NCBI RefSeq assembly: GCF_030580865.1
Contig: NZ_JAUQSY010000001.1
Location: 1 to 64,000 of the forward strand
Length of the DNA: 64,000 nucleotides
Origin: Hymenobacter aranciens
Lineage (GTDB): Bacteria; Bacteroidota; Bacteroidia; Cytophagales; Hymenobacteraceae
Direction of reading: 5' to 3'
The position numbers and the translations under genes were made by a program. Shown here in pieces: positions 30,778-52,160 of the stretch. The notes beneath the pieces are model-generated. The model was not told the DNA's origin, did not search any database, and saw only the letters and a program-made list of their open reading frames with translations. Within the stretch, counting starts at the first letter, position 1. The number at the start of each line of letters is the position of its first letter.

Positions 30778-31538
30778 AAATCATCTCTTACAACCTCAAC
30801 GGCCTGCGCTCGGCCGTGAGTAAAGGCCTGCTCGACTGGCTGGCCGTGGAGCAGCCGGACGTGCTGTGCGTGCAGGAAATCAAGGCCGGCAACACGCCGC
30901 TCGACGTGTCGGGCTTCGAGGCGCTGGGCTACCGCGCCTACCTCTACCCGGCCCAAAAGCCGGGTTACAGCGGCGTAGCTACATTTACCAAGATTGAGCC
31001 CACCAACGTGGCCTACGGCTGCGGCGAAAGCTGCTACGACGACGAAGGCCGCGTGCTACGGCTGGATTTTAACGACGTATCGGTGCTGAATACCTACATG
31101 CCTTCCGGCACCAGCAGCCCCGAGCGGCAGGCTTTCAAGCTAAAGTGGCTGCAATTTTTCCGCAAGTACGTGGCGGAGTTGCGGCAGCAGGGCCACCAGT
31201 TGCTCATCGGTGGCGATTTCAACTGCTGCCCGACGGCCATCGACCTGCACAATCCCAAGGCTAACCAGAACACGCCCGGCTTCACGCCCGAGGAGCGACA
31301 ATGGTTTGCCGATATCATGACCGATGGCTTTCTGGACACCTTCCGCCACCAGCACGGCGACGCGCCGGGACATTACTCGTGGTGGAGCTACCGCGCTGGT
31401 TCGCGTGGCCGCAACGTGGGCTGGCGCCTCGACCACTGGCTGGCGGATAAGGCATTGCAACCTCTTTTGACGGGGGCGGGTCTTTTGCCCGATGCAGTGC
31501 ATTCGGACCACTGCCCGGCCTGGGTGGAAATGCAGTAG
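30774..31538 (+). CDS. xth: Exodeoxyribonuclease III
   Basis: A 254-residue AP endonuclease/3' exonuclease of the exonuclease III family, acting in base excision repair. Motifs in order: ISYNLNGLRSA (metal-binding Asn), VLCVQEIKA (catalytic Glu), GGDFNCCPTAID (catalytic Asp and Asn), GRNVGWRLDHWLAD and HSDHCPAWVEM (catalytic His). The ATG at 30774 overlaps the previous stop by four bases and opens the family N-terminus directly. Length is normal. The TAG stop lies inside the arm of the 30-bp inverted repeat that follows, so the repeat supplies the stop codon. Confidence 0.95.
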   Translation: MKIISYNLNGLRSAVSKGLLDWLAVEQPDVLCVQEIKAGNTPLDVSGFEALGYRAYLYPAQKPGYSGVATFTKIEPTNVAYGCGESCYDDEGRVLRLDFNDVSVLNTYMPSGTSSPERQAFKLKWLQFFRKYVAELRQQGHQLLIGGDFNCCPTAIDLHNPKANQNTPGFTPEERQWFADIMTDGFLDTFRHQHGDAPGHYSWWSYRAGSRGRNVGWRLDHWLADKALQPLLTGAGLLPDAVHSDHCPAWVEMQ

Positions 31539-31605
31539 CGCGGACTTTGTAGTCCGCGAGTCTGAACGACCTCCTGACTCGCGGACTACAAAGTCCGCGC
31601 TACTG
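31533..31605. repeat. 30-bp perfect inverted repeat overlapping the xth stop codon
   Basis: Arms 31533-31562 and 31576-31605 are perfect 30-bp inverted copies with a 13-base loop. The first arm begins CAGTAGCGCGG, and its TAG is the stop of xth. Inside each arm is a smaller palindrome, CGGACTTTGTAGTCCG. Confidence 0.92.
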
Positions 31606-31656
31606 CCGAACCAAGCCCGCCGGGCTGATGTATCTTGCTTGATTAAGACTCAACTT

Positions 31657-34600
31657 ATGGCTGTTGTGATGGAGCGGATGGCTCCGGCAAGCGAGTATCC
31701 GGCCCTGAGCCGGGTGCGGACGGAGCTGGAAGCCTTCAAGCGTAAATTTTACCTGAACCTGCTCGTGCGGGGTGGGCTGGTGGCGGGTGGGTTGCTGCTC
31801 AGCCTGTTCCTGGTTTTTAACCTGCTCGAATATTTCCTGTACCTGCCCACGGCGGTGCGGGCCGTACTGCTGTTCGGCTTCCTGGGCGTGCTGGCGTACA
31901 GCTTCGTGCGCTGGATTTGGCAGCCGCTGGCGGCGCTGACGAATCTACGCCGGCTGCTGGACGACGAGCAGGCCGCCCGCCGGGTAGGGGAGCTGTTTCC
32001 GGAAGTGCAGGACCGGCTGCTGAATGCCCTGCAGCTGCAAGGGCAGGCGCGGGATAATGCGCTCATCGCGGCTAGTCTGGAGCAGCGGGCAGCGCAGCTG
32101 GGCAAGTTTTCGTTTGCCGAGGGCATTGATATTCAACAGCAGAGCAAGCCGCTGTGGAAATATGCCGCCGTGCCGCTGGTGCTGCTGCTGGGACTGCTGG
32201 CCATTTTCCCGAGTTTTTTGCGGCAGGGCACCGAGCGCATCTGGCACTACCAGCGCACCTACTCGCCACCCGCGCCGTTCCAGTTTTTGATTAAAAATCC
32301 GAAGCTGACGGCGTTTCGCGGCGAGGATTTTACCTTGGATGTGGGCGTGGCGGGTAATGCGCTGCCAGCCGAGATGAGCATTGCCTTCGATGGCGGCACG
32401 CGGCGGCTGAGCAAGGTAGCCGGGCGCGGCGATGAGTTTCGCTACGTGTTCGAGCAGCCGCAGGGGGATGTGAAATTTCAGCTGCAAGGCGCGGGCTTTA
32501 GCTCGCCCGAATACCGCCTTACGGTGCTGGAACGGCCTAATCTGCGCGACTTTAAGGTGCAGATTACCTATCCGAATTACACCGGTAAGCCTACCGAAAC
32601 CATCGAAAACGGCGGCAACCTGACCGTGCCGGAAGGCAGCACGGTGCGCTGGGAATTTGCCACCGCCGCCACCGACGAGCTGGCGCTGGTATTCCAAAAC
32701 CCCGACGAAACGCTGGCTGCTACTGGCGATGATGATGCTTTCGTGGCCGAGCGCCGGGTGCTGCGCTCGCAGCCTTATCTGCTGCGTCTGAAAAACCCGG
32801 CTAGCCTTAACCGCGACCCGATTACTTACCAGTTGACTGCCGTGCCCGATTTGGCCCCGGCGCTGACGCTGGAAACCTTCTCCGACACGGCTAGCCTGCG
32901 GTATCTGGGCCTCGGCGGCACCGTGCGTGATGATTATGGACTAACGCGACTGGCGCTACGCTACACCGTGAAGCGCGGCCGCAACCAGCAGGTTGGAGCC
33001 AGTGGCCAGCGGGCACTGGCACTGCCCACCGGCTCGGATGGCACTTATTCTTACACTTGGAACCTCGCTGCGCTGAACTTGCGGCCCGGCGACCGCGTGG
33101 AATACTACGTGGAGGCCTGGGACAACGACGGCATTCACGGGCCGAAGAGCAGCCGCACGCGCCCGGCCGAGTTCCGCTTGCCTAGTCGCAATGAGCTACG
33201 GCAGGAAATGAATGCGCAGGCGCAGTCGGTAGCCAGCCAGATGAGCCAGGCCGCTAAGCAAAGCGAGAAGCTGGAGCGTGAGCTGGCCAAGGCGCAGGAG
33301 AAGATGAAGACCAAGCGGGAAATGAGCTTTCAGGACCGCAAGCAGCTGGAAAACATGCTGGAACAAAAGGCGCAGCTTGACCAGCAGGTGCAGCAGATGC
33401 AAAAGATGTTTGAGCAGCTGCAGGACAAGCAGAACCAGCTCGACCCCAAAAGCGAGGAGTTGGCGAAGAAGGCCGAGGAGCTGAAAAAGCTCATGAACGA
33501 CATTCTGGACCCCGAAACCAAGAAGCTCTACGAGAAGCTGAAAAAGCTGATGGAAGAGCAGAAGCAGCCCGACGCCGAGATGCAGAAGCTGCTGCAACAG
33601 CTCGAAAACAAGGAGAATACCTTGCAAAAGGAGTTGGACCGGGCCCTCGAAATGTTCAAGCAGATGCAGCTGGAGCAAAAGGCCGAAGCCACCGCCAACA
33701 AGCTCGATGAGCTAGCCCAGAAGGAAGAAAAGCTGGCCGAGCAAACCGAGAAGAACGATAAGGACAATCCCGACAACAAAGCCTCGAACCAGGACCAGAA
33801 GGCCAAGAATGAGGAGCTCAAAAAAGAGCAGGCCGAGCTGCAAAAGGAATTCGAGGACCTGAAAAAGGAGCTGGCCGACCTCAAGCAGATGGATAAGGAA
33901 CTCGACAACCAGAACGGCATGGACGAGCAGAAGCCCGAGCAGGAGCAGACCGACCAGGACATGCAGGAAAGCCAGCAGAGCTTAAGCAAAAACCAGAACA
34001 AAAAGGCCGGCAGCAAGCAGCAAAGCGCCGCCTCGCGCATGAAAAAGATGGCGCAGAAAATGCGCGACCAGATGAGCGACCAGGAAAGCGACCAGGCTCA
34101 GCAGAACATCGACGACCTGCGCGACATCCTGGACAACCTCCTGACGCTAAGCTTCGACCAGGAGAAGCTGATGAAGGACTTCCGCCAGGTAGACCAGGCC
34201 GACCCGCGCTTCGTGCAATTGGGCCAAACGCAGCGCAAGCTGCGCGACGACGCCCAGATTATCCAGGACTCCTTATACGCGCTGGCTAAGCGGGAGCCGA
34301 AAATTCAGAGCTTCGTGACCCGCGAGGTAGGCGAGATGAACGGCCGCATGGAGCAATCCATGACCGACATCAAGCAGCGCGACGTGCCCCGCGCCACCGC
34401 CTCGCAGCAGCAGGCCATGACCAGTATCAACAACCTGGCGCTGATGCTGCAAAGCTCCTTGCAGCAGATGCAGCAGGACGCTCAGGAAGGCAAGGGCCAG
34501 CCAAAGGACGGCAACGGCAAGCCCGGCAAGAAAAAGGGCAAAGGCAAGGGCAAAGGCCCCGGCAACAGCCCCGGCCCCGGCAACATGAGCCAGCTGCAAA

Positions 34601-35181
34601 AGCAGCTCAACGACCAGATTCAGCAGCTCTCCAAGAGCGGCAAAACGGGCCGGGCGATGTCGCAGGAGCTAGCTAAGATGGCCGCCCAGCAGCAGATGCT
34701 GCGCCAGGCCATGCAGCAGATGGACAAGATGCAGCCGGGCGGCAGCAAGCCCGGCGGCGGTAAGCCCGGTGGCGAGGGCCAGAGCAGCGGCGGCCGCAAC
34801 GGCAACGAGGGCAAGGAAGGCCAGCCGGGCAACAAAGACGGTAAGGGCGAGCAGGGTGGTGGCGGCACCGGCGAGCTTAAAAAATTGATGGAACAAACCG
34901 AAACCGACCTCGTAAACAAGCGGCTGACGGAGGAAACCATCCTGCGCCAGCAGCAGATTCTGACGCGCATGCTGGAAGTTGAGAAATCGGCCCGCGAGCG
35001 CGACCAGGATACCAAGCGCGAGGCGCAGGCGGCCCAGAATAAGCCGCCGGTTTTTCCGCCCGCATTCGATAAATACAAGGCCTCGAAAGAACGCCAGACC
35101 GAACTGTTGCGTACCACTCCTCCGACGCTCACGCCCTACTACCAGCGCGAGGTCGGCGAATACTTTCAGAAGATGAAATAG
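31657..35181 (+). CDS. DUF4175 family membrane-anchored coiled-coil protein
   Basis: A 1174-residue protein of the Bacteroidota DUF4175 family. Membrane segments lie at about residues 34-58, 62-86 and 165-187, then Ig-like beta domains (about 200-510), and from about 515 a very long Glu/Gln/Lys-rich coiled coil (EELAKKAEELKKLMND style) to about 900. A Gly/Lys/Pro-rich linker (GKGKGKGPGNSPGPGN) and further helical Gln/Met-rich segments follow. It probably spans the envelope as a scaffold; the molecular role is unknown. ATG 31657 is chosen for the family N-terminus; the frame is open further upstream only across the inverted repeat. TATCTTGC 18 bases upstream may be the -7 element. Confidence 0.88.
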   Translation: MAVVMERMAPASEYPALSRVRTELEAFKRKFYLNLLVRGGLVAGGLLLSLFLVFNLLEYFLYLPTAVRAVLLFGFLGVLAYSFVRWIWQPLAALTNLRRLLDDEQAARRVGELFPEVQDRLLNALQLQGQARDNALIAASLEQRAAQLGKFSFAEGIDIQQQSKPLWKYAAVPLVLLLGLLAIFPSFLRQGTERIWHYQRTYSPPAPFQFLIKNPKLTAFRGEDFTLDVGVAGNALPAEMSIAFDGGTRRLSKVAGRGDEFRYVFEQPQGDVKFQLQGAGFSSPEYRLTVLERPNLRDFKVQITYPNYTGKPTETIENGGNLTVPEGSTVRWEFATAATDELALVFQNPDETLAATGDDDAFVAERRVLRSQPYLLRLKNPASLNRDPITYQLTAVPDLAPALTLETFSDTASLRYLGLGGTVRDDYGLTRLALRYTVKRGRNQQVGASGQRALALPTGSDGTYSYTWNLAALNLRPGDRVEYYVEAWDNDGIHGPKSSRTRPAEFRLPSRNELRQEMNAQAQSVASQMSQAAKQSEKLERELAKAQEKMKTKREMSFQDRKQLENMLEQKAQLDQQVQQMQKMFEQLQDKQNQLDPKSEELAKKAEELKKLMNDILDPETKKLYEKLKKLMEEQKQPDAEMQKLLQQLENKENTLQKELDRALEMFKQMQLEQKAEATANKLDELAQKEEKLAEQTEKNDKDNPDNKASNQDQKAKNEELKKEQAELQKEFEDLKKELADLKQMDKELDNQNGMDEQKPEQEQTDQDMQESQQSLSKNQNKKAGSKQQSAASRMKKMAQKMRDQMSDQESDQAQQNIDDLRDILDNLLTLSFDQEKLMKDFRQVDQADPRFVQLGQTQRKLRDDAQIIQDSLYALAKREPKIQSFVTREVGEMNGRMEQSMTDIKQRDVPRATASQQQAMTSINNLALMLQSSLQQMQQDAQEGKGQPKDGNGKPGKKKGKGKGKGPGNSPGPGNMSQLQKQLNDQIQQLSKSGKTGRAMSQELAKMAAQQQMLRQAMQQMDKMQPGGSKPGGGKPGGEGQSSGGRNGNEGKEGQPGNKDGKGEQGGGGTGELKKLMEQTETDLVNKRLTEETILRQQQILTRMLEVEKSARERDQDTKREAQAAQNKPPVFPPAFDKYKASKERQTELLRTTPPTLTPYYQREVGEYFQKMK

Positions 35182-37651: not shown

Positions 37652-37680
37652 TTGTATCGGCTCGGGCTTTCGTATTTTTG
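37652..37680 (+). promoter_or_regulatory. Promoter of mnmG
   Basis: TTG at 37652-37654, 18 bases, then TATTTTTG at 37673-37680: both halves of the Bacteroidota consensus at near-normal spacing. The start codon is 65 bases downstream. Confidence 0.6.
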
Positions 37681-37745
37681 TGAATTATACTCAGTTGCTT
37701 GACGGGCCAGCGAACTTTTTACGGCCTGCCACAGCTTACCACACT

Positions 37746-39614
37746 ATGTTTCAACAGGAAGAATACGACGTTATTGTAGTAGGAGCGGGGCACGCGGGCT
37801 GCGAAGCCGCCGCCGCCGCCGCCAACCTGGGCTCGAAGGTGCTGCTGGTGACGATGAACATGAACACCATCGCCCAGATGTCGTGCAACCCCGCCATGGG
37901 CGGCGTGGCTAAAGGCCAGATTGTGCGCGAGATTGACGCGTTGGGCGGGCAGTCGGGCCTCATCACCGACCGCACCATGATTCAATTTCGGATGCTGAAC
38001 CGCTCGAAGGGCCCCGCCATGTGGAGCCCGCGCGCCCAAAGCGACCGCATGCGCTTCGCCGAAGACTGGCGGCTGACCCTAGAAGGCATTGCCAACGTAG
38101 ACTTCTGGCAGGAAGCCGTGACCGGTCTGCTGGTGGAAAACGGTGTTTGTGTGGGCGTGAAAACGCAGCTCGGCATCGAGTTTCGGGGCAAATCGGTGGT
38201 GCTGACGAATGGTACTTTCCTCAATGGTTTGATTCACATCGGCGAGAAGAACTTTGGCGGTGGCCGGGCGGCCGAGAAGGGCAGCACCGGCCTCACGGAG
38301 CAGCTGAAAGAGTTGGGCTTCGAAGCCGGGCGCATGAAAACCGGCACCCCGCCCCGCGTGGACGGCCGCAGCCTCGATTATTCCAAAATGGAGGAGCAGA
38401 GCGGCGACGCCGAGCCGAGCAAATTCTCGTACCTCGACACGCCGCGGCTGGTGCAACAGCGGCCGTGCTACATCACCTACACCAACGAGCGGGTGCACGA
38501 TATCCTGCGCGAGGGCTTCGAGAAGTCGCCCATGTTCCAGGGCCGCATCAAGGGGCTGGGGCCGCGCTACTGCCCGAGCGTGGAGGACAAAATCAACCGC
38601 TTCGCTGATAAGGACCGGCACCAGATTTTCGTGGAGCCGGAGGGCTGGAGCACGGTGGAAGTGTACGTGAACGGCTTTTCGAGCTCGCTGCCCGAGGACG
38701 TGCAGTACCGCGCCCTGCGCGAAATCGCGGGCTTCGAGCGGGCCAAGATGTTCCGGCCCGGCTATGCCATCGAGTACGACTTTTTCCCGCCCACGCAGCT
38801 GGCCCTGACGCTGGAAACCAAGCCGGTGCAGAACCTCTACTTTGCCGGGCAGATAAATGGCACGACCGGCTACGAAGAGGCCGCCTGCCAGGGCCTCATG
38901 GCCGGCATCAACGCCCACAACAAGGTGCACGGCAAGGAGCCCTTCGTGCTGAAACGCAGCGAGGCCTACATCGGCGTGCTCATTGATGACCTAGTAAACA
39001 AAGGGACCGACGAGCCCTACCGCATGTTCACGAGCCGGGCCGAGCACCGCCTGCTGCTGCGCCAGGACAACGCCGACCTGCGCCTGACGCCCTTGGCCCA
39101 TGCCCTGGGCCTGGCCTCCGACGAGCGGCTGGCCCGCGTGCAAGAGAAGGAACAGCAAGCCGCCGCCGCCACCGAGCTGCTGAAGAATTTCCCCGTCGAA
39201 ATCGCCGACATCAACCCGCTGCTGACGGAGCTGGGCTCGGCCGAAATCCACGAGAAAACCCGCGCCGTGAACCTGCTGCGCCGCCCCAACGTGGAGCTGG
39301 CCGACCTGCGCCGCGCCCTACCCGCACTGGCCGAGGCCCTGGCCGACTTCCACCCCGAGGCGCTGGAGCAGGCCGTCATCAACATCAAATACGAAACCTA
39401 CCTGGTGAAGGAGCAGCAGCAGGCCGCCCGCATGCAGGAACTGGAAGGATTCACCATCCGCGGCCGGCTCGACTATGGCGCAATGCCGGCGCTCAGCCAC
39501 GAGGCGCGGGAGAAATTGCTCAAAATTCAGCCCGAAACGCTGGGGCAGGCCAGCCGCATCAGCGGCATCTCGCCGGCCGACGTGTCGGTGCTGATGGTAT
39601 ACCTGGGAAGGTGA
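37746..39614 (+). CDS. mnmG: tRNA uridine 5-carboxymethylaminomethyl modification enzyme MnmG
   Basis: A 622-residue FAD enzyme that, with MnmE, modifies wobble U34 of tRNAs reading NNA/NNG codons. The dinucleotide loop is VIVVGAGHAGCEAA near residues 9-22, followed by MSCNPAMGGVAKGQIVREID; the central signature is MKTGTPPRVDGRS and the second is GQINGTTGYEEAACQGL. Length is typical. ATG 37746 is chosen because 22 upstream open codons lack homology and cross the promoter. In many bacteria mnmG (gidA) lies beside oriC; a DnaA-box cluster begins 3.3 kb downstream here. Confidence 0.97.
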   Translation: MFQQEEYDVIVVGAGHAGCEAAAAAANLGSKVLLVTMNMNTIAQMSCNPAMGGVAKGQIVREIDALGGQSGLITDRTMIQFRMLNRSKGPAMWSPRAQSDRMRFAEDWRLTLEGIANVDFWQEAVTGLLVENGVCVGVKTQLGIEFRGKSVVLTNGTFLNGLIHIGEKNFGGGRAAEKGSTGLTEQLKELGFEAGRMKTGTPPRVDGRSLDYSKMEEQSGDAEPSKFSYLDTPRLVQQRPCYITYTNERVHDILREGFEKSPMFQGRIKGLGPRYCPSVEDKINRFADKDRHQIFVEPEGWSTVEVYVNGFSSSLPEDVQYRALREIAGFERAKMFRPGYAIEYDFFPPTQLALTLETKPVQNLYFAGQINGTTGYEEAACQGLMAGINAHNKVHGKEPFVLKRSEAYIGVLIDDLVNKGTDEPYRMFTSRAEHRLLLRQDNADLRLTPLAHALGLASDERLARVQEKEQQAAAATELLKNFPVEIADINPLLTELGSAEIHEKTRAVNLLRRPNVELADLRRALPALAEALADFHPEALEQAVINIKYETYLVKEQQQAARMQELEGFTIRGRLDYGAMPALSHEAREKLLKIQPETLGQASRISGISPADVSVLMVYLGR

Positions 39615-42622: not shown

Positions 42623-42832
42623 CCTGACGCGAGTCGGGGTGGACGCGACGGGTATCGGGAAGCCCGGCGCGCGGGTCGGGACGGCCGCGACGGGAGTCGG
42701 GATGTCGGCGACGTGACTCGGGAAGCCCGCGACGGGTATCGGGACGCCTGCGACGGGCATCGGGACGCCCGCGACGGGCATCGGGACGTCGGCGACGCGT
42801 ATCGGGACGGTAGCGACGAGCGTCGGGGCCCA
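42623..42832. repeat. Ten tandem 21-bp repeats
   Basis: Ten units of exactly 21 bases with consensus CGCGACGGGTATCGGGACGC(C), most variable at positions 8-10 and at the ends. Period is two helical turns. Open frames on both strands encode only a seven-residue repeat and are not credible genes. It lies between a terminator and a DnaA-box-rich region. Confidence 0.95.
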
Positions 42833-42904
42833 TCCGGCGCGACCGCTGCTGCGGGCGACGCGATGCCTGGGCTGTCGGCGGGCAGGCAGACGCCTTGGGG
42901 CCAG

Positions 42905-43412
42905 GCGAGTGGATAACTTTTCGGCGTTTCCAGTTACTGAGGGCCTTTTTTGCCCGTAATCCACCGGTAATTCACGCGTTTTCCACCGGCTTTTCCACAG
43001 GGATTTCGGCTTGGGGAGAAATGCGGGGATAACCTGGGGGAAACATGTGGGCAGCGCGGGGATAAGTCGGGGGAAAGTTTTTTTGGCCCGGCGGCAGCCA
43101 GCACAGGGTAATTGGCCGGGGGATAAGCGTGGATAAGTTTCTCCTCGCAGAACGGGTGTTCACAATGGGGGAAACGTGTGAATTGTGGATTTGTGGAAAG
43201 CGTGGGGACATGTTGAAAAACGATTTTAAACTCTGTTTTTCAGCACACTATTTTCCACAATGCCTGTGGATAGGGGGTGCATAACCCCGATGTTTCCCCC
43301 AGGTTATCCCCGCTGTGGATAAGCTGCAAGGGTTGTCCACTTATCAACCGACCTAATGGGTGGAAAACAAAAAGAGATTTTAAAAAAAGATTTCAACAAA
43401 AAATTAAGTTGG
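42905..43412. other. Candidate replication origin (oriC): DnaA-box cluster plus AT-rich tract
   Basis: Within 500 bases there are many 9-mers close to the DnaA box TTATCCACA: a perfect copy at 43314-43322 (minus), one-mismatch copies at 42908, 42991, 43128, 43251 and 43265, and several TTATCCCCG or TTGTCCACT variants (43024, 43057, 43304, 43333). An AT-rich stretch at 43361-43411 could be the unwinding element. Further perfect boxes are at 43966, 44724 and 44750. Ten 21-bp repeats lie just to the left, and mnmG is 3.3 kb away. The rest of 42548-43582 carries no gene. Confidence 0.6.
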
Positions 43413-43582
43413 GGGAAAACCCGATTCAAGGGTTTTTCTCGGGGGAAATTCAAAAAAGGATTTCCCGGCCGAAAAGCTTTCTGAATCTGCCAAACCAGAA
43501 TTGATGGGCCGGCCGAAATTTTCAAGCCGCCTTCCGGGGCGCCGCGTATAAAATCCGCTGCGCCGAAAAAAAGCCCCTCGCC

Positions 43583-44077
43583 ATGCCGTTCGATTACACC
43601 CTCGATTTCCACACCGTCAATTTCCGGGAGCACCCCGAGCTGTACCGCGTGGGCATCGGCGAGCAGGGCGTGCTGCTGGTGCAGCCCTACAAGGGCGAAA
43701 TTTTGCCGCACTGGCGCTTCAAGGACGCCGCGGCGGCCCGGGAGTCCTCGGCGACGATTTACGGCCTGTTTGAGGCGTATTTGAAGGACCACGATTTCGT
43801 GGGGGCCGACATGGCCCGCAAATTCCTGCAAATGGGCTTCACCCGGGCCCGGCGCTACGCCAACCACAAGGGCGGCAAAAAATACGCCGGCCCCGTGCCC
43901 GCCGACAAAAAAGGCCAGAGCGGCGCCCACGGCCGCGCCGAGCTCCCCCGCACCACCCACCCCGATGTGGATAAGGTGGAAGCCGCCGCCATTTTCAAAA
44001 AAAAGTGGGACGAAGCCAAGGTGCACCCGGAATATGTGAAGCAGAAAGCCGCCTTCCAGGAGAAATACGGAAAGTAA
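43583..44077 (+). CDS. DUF4385 family protein
   Basis: A 164-residue soluble protein of the DUF4385 family: FDYTLDFHTVNFREHPELYR, then GEQGVLLVQPYKGEILPHW, FVGADMARKFLQMGFTRARR and YANHKGGKKY. The second half is basic and rich in Lys/Arg, which could suit nucleic-acid binding. Function is not established. It contains a perfect DnaA-box 9-mer (43966-43974) and lies between two DnaA-box-rich intergenic regions. The TAA stop begins the palindromic element that follows. Confidence 0.85.
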   Translation: MPFDYTLDFHTVNFREHPELYRVGIGEQGVLLVQPYKGEILPHWRFKDAAAARESSATIYGLFEAYLKDHDFVGADMARKFLQMGFTRARRYANHKGGKKYAGPVPADKKGQSGAHGRAELPRTTHPDVDKVEAAAIFKKKWDEAKVHPEYVKQKAAFQEKYGK

Positions 44078-44189
44078 TGGTTAATGATTAATGGTGAATG
44101 GTTAATGAGTGGGGAGGCCGCTGGTTTTCCCCACGCCGGCTCGACTTATCCCCACTTATCAACCATTCACCATTAATCATTAACCATTA
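44075..44189. repeat. Palindromic element overlapping a stop codon (GGTTAATGATTAATGG type)
   Basis: Arms of about 38 bases (TAATGGTTAATGATTAATGG... and its inverted partner ending CCATTA at 44189) differ at two or three positions. The first bases TAA are the stop codon of the DUF4385 gene. The loop includes TTATCCCC words. Confidence 0.88.
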
Positions 44190-44195
44190 AGCAAC

Positions 44196-44203
44196 TACTT
44201 TTG
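44196..44203 (+). promoter_or_regulatory. Putative -7 promoter element
   Basis: TACTTTTG matches TAnnTTTG and lies 27 bases before the next ATG, just outside the hairpin repeat. Confidence 0.45.
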
Positions 44204-44230
44204 CCCATTACCCTTCAATAGCTCAATAAA

Positions 44231-44716
44231 ATGAACCCAACCCAACCCTCCAGCATCGAGGAAAACGACATCATCCTGGGCATCGGCATGGGGCCGCTGC
44301 GGTTCGGCGCCACTATGGACGAGGTGCGAACCCTCGTGGGCGAGCCCGAGGAAATCGAGGAATCGGAAGACGACGACGAGTTCGAGCACCAGGCCTGGAA
44401 CTACCACGAAGACGAATACCTGCTCTCGCTCTACTTCGACCGCGAGGACGATTTCCGCCTCTCGTGCATCGAAACCGACAACCCCGGCATGCGCCTCTTC
44501 GGCGAGCCCATCTACGGTGTGGGCCTCGAAGAAATCAAGTCTCTCATGGCCCGCCACGGCCAGAAGGAAGCCGAAATCGAGACGATGGAAGAGGGCGCCG
44601 TGCGCCTCTCCTACGAGAAGGGCATGATTGATTTGTACTTCGAAGAAGGCGAGCTGCAGTTCGTCAATTTCGGCGTTTTCATCGACGATAACCTCGAAGT
44701 GCAGTGGCCTAAGTAA
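44231..44716 (+). CDS. Conserved acidic hypothetical protein
   Basis: A 161-residue, strongly acidic soluble protein (EPEEIEESEDDDEFEHQ). The opening ILGIGMGPLRFGATMDEVRTLVG resembles a short domain seen in many bacterial hypothetical proteins (PLxFGMTxEEV) that is also found near immunity-type proteins; I cannot assign a function. The ATG follows a TACTTTTG promoter by 27 bases. It lies between DnaA-box-bearing intergenic regions. Confidence 0.75.
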   Translation: MNPTQPSSIEENDIILGIGMGPLRFGATMDEVRTLVGEPEEIEESEDDDEFEHQAWNYHEDEYLLSLYFDREDDFRLSCIETDNPGMRLFGEPIYGVGLEEIKSLMARHGQKEAEIETMEEGAVRLSYEKGMIDLYFEEGELQFVNFGVFIDDNLEVQWPK

Positions 44717-44723
44717 GCCGGAG

Positions 44724-44766
44724 TTATCCACAAAATCCGCCGTTTTCCGTGTGGATAAGTGGATAA
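44724..44766. other. Second DnaA-box group
   Basis: Two perfect TTATCCACA boxes in opposite orientations (44724-44732 plus, 44750-44758 minus) and a one-mismatch box (44758-44766). They lie eight bases after a stop codon and 1.4 kb from the main cluster. Confidence 0.65.
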
Positions 44767-48173: not shown

Positions 48174-51100
48174 ATGCGAATGAATACCCTTTTGCAGCTA
48201 GGTTTCGGCCTGGTAGCAATTCCGGCCTTGGCAAACACGCCCACGGTGGTGGGGCCGGCCCCAAGCCCGACCGTCGAATTTGTGGCTAACCAACGGCAGT
48301 GGGAAAAGCCCGTGCTATTTGCGGCCGATGTGCCGGGCGGGCGGCTGTACCTGGAGCGTGGCCGCCTGCTGCAGTCGCTCTACGATGCCAGACAAATCGA
48401 CGAGCTGCACCACCATAAGGGGGAGGTTTCGACCCGGCAGTCCATCAAGGCCCACGCCTACGCTACTACGTTTGTGGGTGCCAATCCGCAGGCGCGGGTG
48501 GGAGGGGAAAGCCAGCTGCCCGGCTACAGCAACTACTTTCTGGGGAATGATAAAAACCGTTGGGCCAGCAACGTGCCCGGCTACGGCGAAGTGCGCTATG
48601 CCGCACTGTACCCGGGCATTGACCTGCATTTTTACAGCAAGGAGCTGGCTTTGGAGTACGACTTCGAAGTGAAGGCCGGCGCCGATGCCGGCCGCATCGC
48701 CCTGCGCTACGATGGCCAAACCAGCCTGCGCCTGGTAGATGGCGCGCTGCACATCGGCACGAGCGTAGGTACGGTGGTAGAGCAGCGGCCTTACGCTTAC
48801 CAGCTGGTTGATGGAAAGCGGATTAAAATTGCGTGTGAGTATGCTATCGGCAGTGGGAACACGGTGCGCTTCAGCCTGCCCAAGGGGTATAATAAAGCCC
48901 TGCCGCTAGTCATTGACCCCGTATTGTCGTATGCTACCTACACGGGCTCAAGCGCTAACAACTACGGCTATACCGCTACCTACGATGCCGCCGGCAACCT
49001 GTACTCGGGCGGCACGGTGTTCAGCGCTGGTTACCCCACTACGGTAGGAGCTTACAGCACTACGTTTGCCGGGGTGCAGGATATTGGCATCATGAAGTTT
49101 AACCCCAACGCGGCTACCGGGCCCGCCAGCCGGGTGTACGCGACATACCTGGGCGGGGGCTCCGATGACCACCCGCACAGCCTAGTGGTAGATGGCAACA
49201 ACAACCTCATCATTCTGGGTACCACCAGCTCGGCGAATTTCCCGACCACCACCGGCGCCATTGCCACTACCCGCTCAGGGGCGTCAGATATCACCATAAC
49301 CAAGCTGAACCCTGCCGGCGCGGCGCTGGTGGGTTCCACCTATTTCGGCGGTACTGCGGCTGATGGCCAGGTATCCGGGACGCTAAACCAGAACTATGGT
49401 GATGCCTACCGGGGCGATATTACCATCGACCGGAACAACAACATCTACCTCGCCGCTATCACGCAGTCGACCAACTATCCTACTACCGTAGGGGCCTTCC
49501 AGCGCACCTCGGGCGGGGGCGGTGCCGACGGCGTGGTGTCGAAATTCAATGCCACGCTGACCAGCGTGGTCTGGAGCTCATACCTCGGCGGTTCGGGCCT
49601 CGATGCCGTTTACTCGGTGCAGCTCGACAGCATCAACAACGTGTTTGTGAGCGGCGGCACCACCAGTACCAACCTGCCCGGCACTACGGGTGCCTACCAT
49701 GCTACCAGCCAGGGCGGAACTGATGGCTTCGTGGCGCGTATTGCTCCCGATGGCTCGGCCCTGGTACGCACTACCTACCTGGGTACTTCGGCTTACGACC
49801 AGGCGTATCTGCTGCAGCTGAACAAGCGCGGCGAAGTGTATGCCTACGGCCAGACCCTGGGGGCCTATCCCGTTTCGGCGGGCATTTATACCAACGCCAA
49901 CAGCCGTCAGTTTATCCACAAGCTGAATCCGACGTTGACGACCAGTGTTTTCTCTACCGTGGTAGGCAACGGCGGGCGCGCTTCGGGTAGCCATTGTTTG
50001 TCGCCCACGGCCTTTTTGGTGGATAACTGCGGGCAGATTATCATCGCGGGCTGGGGTGGTACTTCGCTGGGCGAAAGCACGATTGCGGGCCTGCCCGTAA
50101 CGGCCGGGGCTATCCAGGCAACGGGCCCCTCGGGCGACAACCACTACATCATGCAGCTGTCGGCCAACGCCCAGACGCTGGTGTACGGCACGTATTTCGG
50201 CAACGGCAGCTGCCACGCCGATGGCGGAACCTCGCGCTTCGACAAGTCGGGCGTTATCTACCAAGCCATGTGCGTGGGGACGGGCAGCGGGGCTATCCAG
50301 ACTACTCCCAATGCCTGGTCGCGCACCAAAGGCACTGGCTCTTACAATAATGGGGCTTTCAAAATTGACGTACTGCAGCTGAATGCCAATTTTATACCGG
50401 CCATTACTGCCACCAGCACCACGCGCCAGGCCGACCTATGCTCTCCGGCCCAGTTCTACTTCAACCGTCCCTCAACGACGGGCACCAGCGTGCTGTGGAA
50501 CTTTGGTAATGGGCAGACCTCCACGCAAACCAATAATGCCACGACTACCTACACGAGCCCGGGACGCTACGCGGTAAGCCTGACGGTGTTTGACACCAAT
50601 GGCTGCCTGCCAAGCGTAACTACTATCGATACCGTGGTGGTGTACCCGGTGCCCGCCCCCCGGGTAGCGGTCAGCTCGCGCCAAACCATCTGTATTGGCA
50701 ATCCCGCTACGCTGTCTGCCAGCAATATAGCTGCCGGTACTCCCAACGTATCCTACACCTGGACTGCCCCCGGCCAGCCCACCCAAACGGGCGCTACCAT
50801 CACAGTGCAGCCCACCGCAACCACCAAATACACCGTGACGCTCGCCACCCCGGGTGGCGCGGGCGGCTGCTCGGCCACCGATACGGTGACGGTACGCGTA
50901 TTGAATGAGCCGCTGGATGCCAGCTTCGTGCCCGCGCTGACGGCCACTGCCAGCACGCGCCAGGCTTCGCAGTGCGCGCCGGCCCAGTTCTTCTTCAACC
51001 GGCCCGCCGTAGTGGGCACGGGCGTGCTGTGGGACTTTGGCAACGGCCAGACTTCGACGCTGGCCAATAACGCCACGGCTACCTACTCCGCGCCTGGCCG

Positions 51101-52160
51101 CTACCCCGTGCGCCTCACCGTGACCAATAGCAACGGCTGCGGCCAGAGCCGCACAACTGTCGACACGGTAGTGGTGTACGCCGTGCCGCGGCCGCAGGTA
51201 ACGCCGGCCTCGCGGGCGCTGGTGTGCTTCGGCTCGGCTACTACGCTTACGGCCAACAATCTGAATGCGGCAGCTCCAAACGTAATTTACACCTGGACGG
51301 CGCCCGGCCTGCCTACTCTGACGGGCCCTGCCATTACGATTACGCCCGCTGCTACCGTGCAATATACCGTGACGGCCAGCACCCCCGCCAACGCCGGCAG
51401 CTGCTCCGAGACCGATACCGTGACCGTGCATGTGCTTGACCGCGTGGTGGTAGCCGCCGGTCCCGCCCGCGACATCTGCCCGGGCTCGTCCGTGACGCTC
51501 AGCGTGCCCAGCGCTGGCCCCAACGCCCGCTACATCTGGACGGCCCCCGGCCAGCCCACGCTCAGCGGCCAAAGCGTGAGCGTGCAGCCGTCGGCCAGCA
51601 TCCGCTACCGCGTAGTGGTGGAAAACCAGTACGGCTGCCAGGGCCGCGACTCGGTGCAGGTGAACGTGGCCACCCGGCCCACGCTGGCGGCTACCGTCAG
51701 CGCGGCTAACATTATCAACGAGCCGGTTACTTTCACCAACACCTCGACCGGCGCTACCAGTTACCGCTGGGACTTTGGGGATAACAGTGCCCCCAGTACC
51801 GACATTAACCCTACCCATACCTACACCACGGTGTCGCCGGTGCCCTTCCAGGCCCGCTTGACGGCCATTTATGGCGCGGCTAACTGCGAAGAAACCATTG
51901 TGGTACCGGTAACGGTGCGCGGCTTCGCGCTGCCCAACATCATCACGCCCAACAACGATGGCAAGAACGATACGTTCCGCCCTTTTGTGACTACGGAATC
52001 AGTTAAAATTCAGGTTTTCAACCGCTGGGGGCGTCTGGTATATGAAAACGCCAACTACGTGGACGGCTGGGGCGCCGATGCCGCCGCCGGAACCTACTAC
52101 TACTACATTGTGAACACGAGCGGCGACAGCTGGAAAGGCTGGGTGGAAGTGGTTCGCTAG
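48174..52160 (+). CDS. Giant secreted protein with SBBP/PKD repeats and T9SS type B domain
   Basis: A 1328-residue exported protein. After a signal peptide (LGFGLVAIPALA) comes a DUF7948-like N-terminal domain (about 35-240: FVANQRQWEKPVLFAADVPG, YPGIDLHFYSKE), then SBBP-type beta-propeller repeats (about 250-730: DGNNNLIILGTTSSANFPTT, YLGGSGLDAVYSV). Two copies of a PKD-plus-Ig module follow (about 740-915 and 918-1090), then another Ig unit, a PKD domain (about 1171-1250) and a gliding-motility-type C-terminal domain (LPNIITPNNDGKNDTFRPF, VFNRWGRLVYE), the T9SS type B signal. Likely a surface adhesin. The next gene is a close paralogue with one module fewer. The second ATG, two codons on, is an equal start. 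Confidence 0.9.
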   Translation: MRMNTLLQLGFGLVAIPALANTPTVVGPAPSPTVEFVANQRQWEKPVLFAADVPGGRLYLERGRLLQSLYDARQIDELHHHKGEVSTRQSIKAHAYATTFVGANPQARVGGESQLPGYSNYFLGNDKNRWASNVPGYGEVRYAALYPGIDLHFYSKELALEYDFEVKAGADAGRIALRYDGQTSLRLVDGALHIGTSVGTVVEQRPYAYQLVDGKRIKIACEYAIGSGNTVRFSLPKGYNKALPLVIDPVLSYATYTGSSANNYGYTATYDAAGNLYSGGTVFSAGYPTTVGAYSTTFAGVQDIGIMKFNPNAATGPASRVYATYLGGGSDDHPHSLVVDGNNNLIILGTTSSANFPTTTGAIATTRSGASDITITKLNPAGAALVGSTYFGGTAADGQVSGTLNQNYGDAYRGDITIDRNNNIYLAAITQSTNYPTTVGAFQRTSGGGGADGVVSKFNATLTSVVWSSYLGGSGLDAVYSVQLDSINNVFVSGGTTSTNLPGTTGAYHATSQGGTDGFVARIAPDGSALVRTTYLGTSAYDQAYLLQLNKRGEVYAYGQTLGAYPVSAGIYTNANSRQFIHKLNPTLTTSVFSTVVGNGGRASGSHCLSPTAFLVDNCGQIIIAGWGGTSLGESTIAGLPVTAGAIQATGPSGDNHYIMQLSANAQTLVYGTYFGNGSCHADGGTSRFDKSGVIYQAMCVGTGSGAIQTTPNAWSRTKGTGSYNNGAFKIDVLQLNANFIPAITATSTTRQADLCSPAQFYFNRPSTTGTSVLWNFGNGQTSTQTNNATTTYTSPGRYAVSLTVFDTNGCLPSVTTIDTVVVYPVPAPRVAVSSRQTICIGNPATLSASNIAAGTPNVSYTWTAPGQPTQTGATITVQPTATTKYTVTLATPGGAGGCSATDTVTVRVLNEPLDASFVPALTATASTRQASQCAPAQFFFNRPAVVGTGVLWDFGNGQTSTLANNATATYSAPGRYPVRLTVTNSNGCGQSRTTVDTVVVYAVPRPQVTPASRALVCFGSATTLTANNLNAAAPNVIYTWTAPGLPTLTGPAITITPAATVQYTVTASTPANAGSCSETDTVTVHVLDRVVVAAGPARDICPGSSVTLSVPSAGPNARYIWTAPGQPTLSGQSVSVQPSASIRYRVVVENQYGCQGRDSVQVNVATRPTLAATVSAANIINEPVTFTNTSTGATSYRWDFGDNSAPSTDINPTHTYTTVSPVPFQARLTAIYGAANCEETIVVPVTVRGFALPNIITPNNDGKNDTFRPFVTTESVKIQVFNRWGRLVYENANYVDGWGADAAAGTYYYYIVNTSGDSWKGWVEVVR

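Follow-up and report, generated by a model that had tools for sequence, protein, structure and literature searches.

A DnaA-box array near mnmG, unlinked to dnaA, that is very probably the chromosomal origin of Hymenobacter

The window analysed is a stretch of 64,000 nucleotides of Hymenobacter aranciens (C11:1-64000), taken from contig C11 (592 kb) of a 6.02-Mb genome that is assembled in 29 contigs. It contains two groups of DnaA boxes, at 42.9-43.45 kb and 44.72-44.77 kb, with a gene between them. A candidate chromosomal origin had been placed here by a sequence-only reading, which also named mnmG as a neighbour about 3.3 kb away; this agrees with the TIGR00136 match found 3.0-3.3 kb off. 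The features of the locus are as follows:

37680-39614, plus strand: mnmG (gidA), a neighbouring gene (TIGR00136, 831 bits)
42900-43460, no strand: very probable oriC core, an intergenic DnaA-box array with an AT-rich tract for unwinding (12 TTWTCCMC cores; conservation)
42909, 42979, 42991, 43025, 43058, 43119, 43129, 43251, 43304, 43315, 43360 and 43412: the TTWTCCMC cores
42908-42916, minus strand: DnaA box with one mismatch, TTATCCACT
42991-42999, plus strand: DnaA box with one mismatch, TTTTCCACA, in a conserved block
43022-43045, no strand: longest conserved block, consensus TTCGGGGATAACCTGGGGGAAACA, in one arm of a 29-bp inverted repeat whose other arm is 43285-43313
43128-43136, minus strand: DnaA box with one mismatch, TTATCCACG, overlapping a conserved block
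43251-43259, plus strand: DnaA box with one mismatch, TTTTCCACA, overlapping a conserved block
43265-43273, minus strand: DnaA box with one mismatch, CTATCCACA
43314-43322, minus strand: perfect DnaA box, TTATCCACA
43336-43363, plus strand: tandem box-like sites (TTGTCCACT from 43333, and TTATCAACC) and a CCTAAYGA-type element, bordering the AT tract on its left
43361-43411, no strand: AT-rich tract, the presumed DNA-unwinding element, with AAAAGAGATTTTAAA/AAAAAAGATTTCAAC repeats spaced by 13 bp (repeat family D4)
43583-44077, plus strand: DUF4385 gene (PF14328), between the two box groups, with the perfect box 43966 in its 3' part
44231-44716, plus strand: gene of a conserved 161-aa protein, the marker of the origin locus
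44724-44766, no strand: second DnaA-box group, an inverted pair (starts 26 bp apart) and a third box

The 161-aa protein gave no match in Pfam or NCBIfam, and reaches 85% identity with Hymenobacter proteins. It was found in 119 of 120 genomes of the genus and in all 100 genomes of a family sample, and its gene is referred to below as the marker gene. Scans of the window with Rfam and for tRNAs gave no matches. Directly to the left of the origin, at 42626-42840, there is a GC-rich array of 21-bp repeats of the GACGGGTATCGGGACGCCCGC type, which shows no conservation when the relatives are aligned. A 41-bp inverted repeat lies between the genes of DUF4385 and the 161-aa protein (44075-44189, 95% complementary, TAATGGTTAATGATTAATGG...), and its 16-bp core has one more copy on C11, at 490190. 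Further away, AT skew is very strong (about +0.48) at 33001-35000, inside a reading frame of 1,229 amino acids (31492-35181).

The four perfect TTATCCACA boxes described earlier were all recovered, at 43314 (minus strand), 43966 (minus), 44724 (plus) and 44750 (minus), and the at least six boxes with one mismatch proved to be seven between 42623 and 44766 (42908, 42991, 43128, 43251, 43265, 44146 and 44758). In the whole window, 21 boxes with at most one mismatch were counted against 5.7 expected, a number reached in none of 100 shuffles, and five perfect boxes against 0.17 expected; the fifth is situated at 49912, within a long reading frame (48174-52160). Only 26 perfect boxes are present in the 6.02 Mb of the genome, and when 26 boxes were placed randomly 200,000 times, four never fell within 1,445 bp. 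In 42850-43470 there are 12 occurrences of the relaxed core TTWTCCMC, compared with 0.43 in shuffles (maximum 3 in 1,000). Its background on the 592-kb contig is 0.09 per 600 bp, and the array is the densest 600 bp of C11. Since 42850-43470 also shows an enrichment of more than 200-fold for the variants GGGGATAA and GGGGGAAA, the array may exceed what TTATCCACA shows.

Such boxes could also serve DnaA titration (datA/DARS-like) or transcription control, as a cluster near, yet distinct from, the true origin. DnaA boxes outside oriC do exist in the genus, where a conserved perfect inverted pair is found upstream of an nrdB-like gene, and the 44.72-44.77 kb group could be a site of this kind. This explanation of the array is nevertheless very unlikely: no other place on C11 comes near its density, and more than two perfect boxes close together occur nowhere else in the genome. 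The array also adjoins an AT-rich tract that is conserved, the only parS-type site is 20-29 kb off, and in relatives dif is antipodal to it.

The AT-rich tract that had been noticed beside the boxes is real; within the surrounding 5 kb, AT content is highest in the 40 bp from about 43363, and the tract ranks likewise in nearly all relatives. Its position at the edge of the box cluster is what would be expected of a DnaA-dependent oriC. The CCTAAYGA-type element was found in 50 of 71 loci, including those of Rufibacter, against 0.04 per 1,700 bp expected from the DNA that flanks these loci. With a plain pattern, TTATCCACTT-N-CCTAAYGA was not matched in 21 of the 71, indicating that the exact form is not universal. 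Rufibacter also has TTATCCACTT-N-CCTAAYGA, at the same gene boundary and with the AT tract after it.

The box cluster is observed at the same place in 62 of 62 full-length Hymenobacter relatives. Counts were made over these 62 loci with full flanks and the H. aranciens locus, and gave 14.2 boxes (at most one mismatch) per locus between -1600 and +600 of the marker gene (minimum 4) versus 1.4 in the other 8.3 kb, with permuted motifs near zero. These boxes are concentrated in two places, upstream of the DUF4385 gene and immediately after the 161-aa gene, and in nearly all Hymenobacter loci the marker gene is followed by the inverted pair with its 26-bp spacing. On aligning 20 close relatives, it was observed that the conserved blocks are mostly box sequences. 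The DUF4385 gene is present at the locus in all 62 Hymenobacter relatives and in none of eight Rufibacter loci, where the intergenic region without this gene contains the relaxed core and the unwinding module. Rufibacter at first seemed to be without the cluster, owing to a lower GC content, which raises the background, and to more degenerate boxes.

Sequence patterns alone were used to recognise parS and dif, and dif was placed from relatives, the H. aranciens genome being in 29 contigs. One exact parS-type palindrome per genome was found in 20 genomes of the genus. In H. aranciens the only such site is at C11:72807, 28.6 kb from the marker gene, and in 13 relatives the distance is 20-27 kb. 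In 13 relatives, nine of them single-contig, the marker gene and a dif-like site (CTTATAATTTATATTATGTTAA or a version differing by one base) are separated by 0.474-0.4985 of the chromosome; these 13 antipodal genomes share ancestry and are therefore not 13 independent tests. In a nearer genus parS is about 21 kb from the marker gene (two genomes), and in three other genera of the family it is 5-10 kb away (12 genomes); of the 16 genomes in the family search, two were without an exact match and one had a second site. As parS lies near the marker gene in other genera too, the neighbourhood looks origin-proximal across the family. A lone ParB-family gene was located at C6:135797, on another contig than the lone parS-type site. 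In the complete relatives parB is far from parS, and in eight of nine it is about 145-220 kb from dnaA.

It had been stated that dnaA is not in the window, and the gene is indeed on contig C3, where the one DnaA of the genome is encoded at 139 kb (100.9 bits to PF08299). As oriC is usually flanked by dnaA (PMC4285127), an origin beside that gene could be proposed, with the 43-kb locus being something else. However, no perfect box is present on the dnaA contig, and the 94 kb around dnaA have at most three boxes (up to one mismatch) per 2 kb. In relatives the position of dnaA wanders, lying 0.97-2.4 Mb from the locus and 0.008-0.30 of the chromosome from dif, and the complete relative G067, when split at dnaA, gives almost no skew difference (0.0035 vs 0.030 for the best split). 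The probability of an origin beside dnaA is thus vanishingly small, and it was rejected for want of a nearby box cluster, for the distance of dnaA from the locus and for the lack of a skew axis there. In G078, dnaA (C3:875068) is only 44 kb from the dif-like site (C3:830536), and in G009, G082 and G083 it is within 5% of the chromosome from that site, so that the initiator gene is near the terminus.

A skew minimum located elsewhere had been named by the sequence-only reading as the result that would speak against an origin here. On the contig itself this is what was found, as cumulative GC skew falls straight through the locus and has its minimum near 400 kb; but C11 is rearranged, and the skew axis of G067 falls on the locus. 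An origin at about C11:400 kb would account for the minimum of this contig. There is no box cluster at that place, however; compared with G067, the contig is inverted at 110-230 kb and at 240-310 kb consists largely of blocks from beyond the locus, on the other arm; and the parS-type site is about 330 kb from 400 kb versus 28.6 kb from the marker gene, which makes this position very improbable. Since synteny with G067 shows that C11 is rearranged and its local skew scrambled, the skew of this contig does not refute an oriC at 43 kb and was dropped as arbiter. The blocks at C11:110000-310000 (L007-L017) are possibly the result of a recent rearrangement close to the origin, or else of a fault in the assembly.

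For G067, skew was determined in 40 evenly spaced 20-kb samples. With the chromosome split at the locus and dif, the arms show a skew of +0.016 vs -0.014 (Mann-Whitney p = 0.0003). Of all two-arm splits tested, the best one starts at 1.00-1.10 Mb with equal halves, the locus being at 1.098 Mb, and ranks first of 40 rotations (permutation p = 0.003). The skew of this genome is weak and fine mapping is noisy, with a local minimum about 40 kb off the locus and a deeper one at 1.42 Mb (800-kb stretch). G047, of which half was sampled, showed weak skew only, and gene-strand bias did not differ between the G067 arms (0.48 vs 0.52) and was therefore uninformative.

The first case for an origin was made from boxes alone, whereas conservation, parS, dif and the GC skew of a relative are independent lines. 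The boxes are kept in 62 other Hymenobacter loci, the lone parS-type site is nearby, the dif-like site is antipodal in 13 relatives and the skew axis of the complete relative coincides with the locus. Hence, the reading as oriC holds, and it was concluded that the 42.9-43.45 kb stretch and its surroundings are very probably the oriC of the Hymenobacter chromosome, of DnaA type. The locus is a fresh example of an already known kind of origin, with the two-part layout around the DUF4385 gene as an unusual detail. Searches of the literature on the origin of Hymenobacter and on DnaA-trios of Bacteroidetes returned nothing relevant.

Like the E. coli model, this oriC has dense 9-mer boxes of the TTATCCACA type and a single AT-rich tract that lies at the array's edge, directly bordered by boxes; unlike it, it belongs to a GC-rich genome, has many TTATCCCC and TTTCCCCC variants and is unlinked to dnaA. 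The nearby parS and the dif opposite are shared with many bacteria. Cytophaga hutchinsonii and Hymenobacter are members of the same order. The oriC of the former, as cited in PMC5891637, is reported to drive replicative plasmids (Xu et al. 2012); it is a chromosomal origin from the same phylum and is likened to the present one by description.

With studied origins as the model for DnaA assembly on an array and melting of an AT tract (PMC4285127), we infer that DnaA, supplied from its distant gene, would bind the array at 42.9-43.33 kb as well as the boxes that border the AT tract. This assembly would melt the tract at 43361-43411, after which the helicase would be loaded. Two forks would then leave oriC and meet near the dif-like site, half a chromosome off. 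The group at 44.72-44.77 kb may be the second half of a split origin, reached by DnaA looping, or an accessory or titration site.

Bipartite origins consist of two box groups, with the unwinding element in one of them, and extend up to about 2 kb with a spacer gene (PMC4285127). Like the origins of Bacillus subtilis and Helicobacter pylori, the Hymenobacter locus has two box groups with genes between them, one group carrying the AT tract; here the groups are separated by about 1.3 kb, and the total length of about 1.9 kb is near the value of about 2 kb given for such origins (PMC4285127). It differs from these two in that its spacers are the genes of DUF4385 and the 161-aa protein rather than dnaA, and the cooperation of its groups is putative. 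It is conceivable, though rather doubtful, that a DUF4385 gene was inserted into an intergenic region which in relatives such as Rufibacter contains the origin, so that DnaA must bridge two box groups. If this were true, the oriC would be bipartite without dnaA as the spacer, bridged across two genes that have no known link to replication. The locus offers a natural example in which to ask whether an origin becomes bipartite when a gene is inserted next to it.

A firm, testable origin is now available for a genus of more than 100 sequenced species, as a fragment ready for an oriC plasmid. In this genus dnaA is unsafe as an origin marker, being always far from the origin and in some cases almost at the terminus.

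The perfect inverted DnaA-box pair upstream of the nrdB-like ribonucleotide reductase gene is located at C11:506028-506052 (L027:6028-6052), with starts 16 bp apart; the name of the gene is based on its sequence rather than on a family search. G009, G037, G047 (two) and G057 have pairs of equal spacing. The arrangement beside this gene suggests that DnaA may control nucleotide supply.
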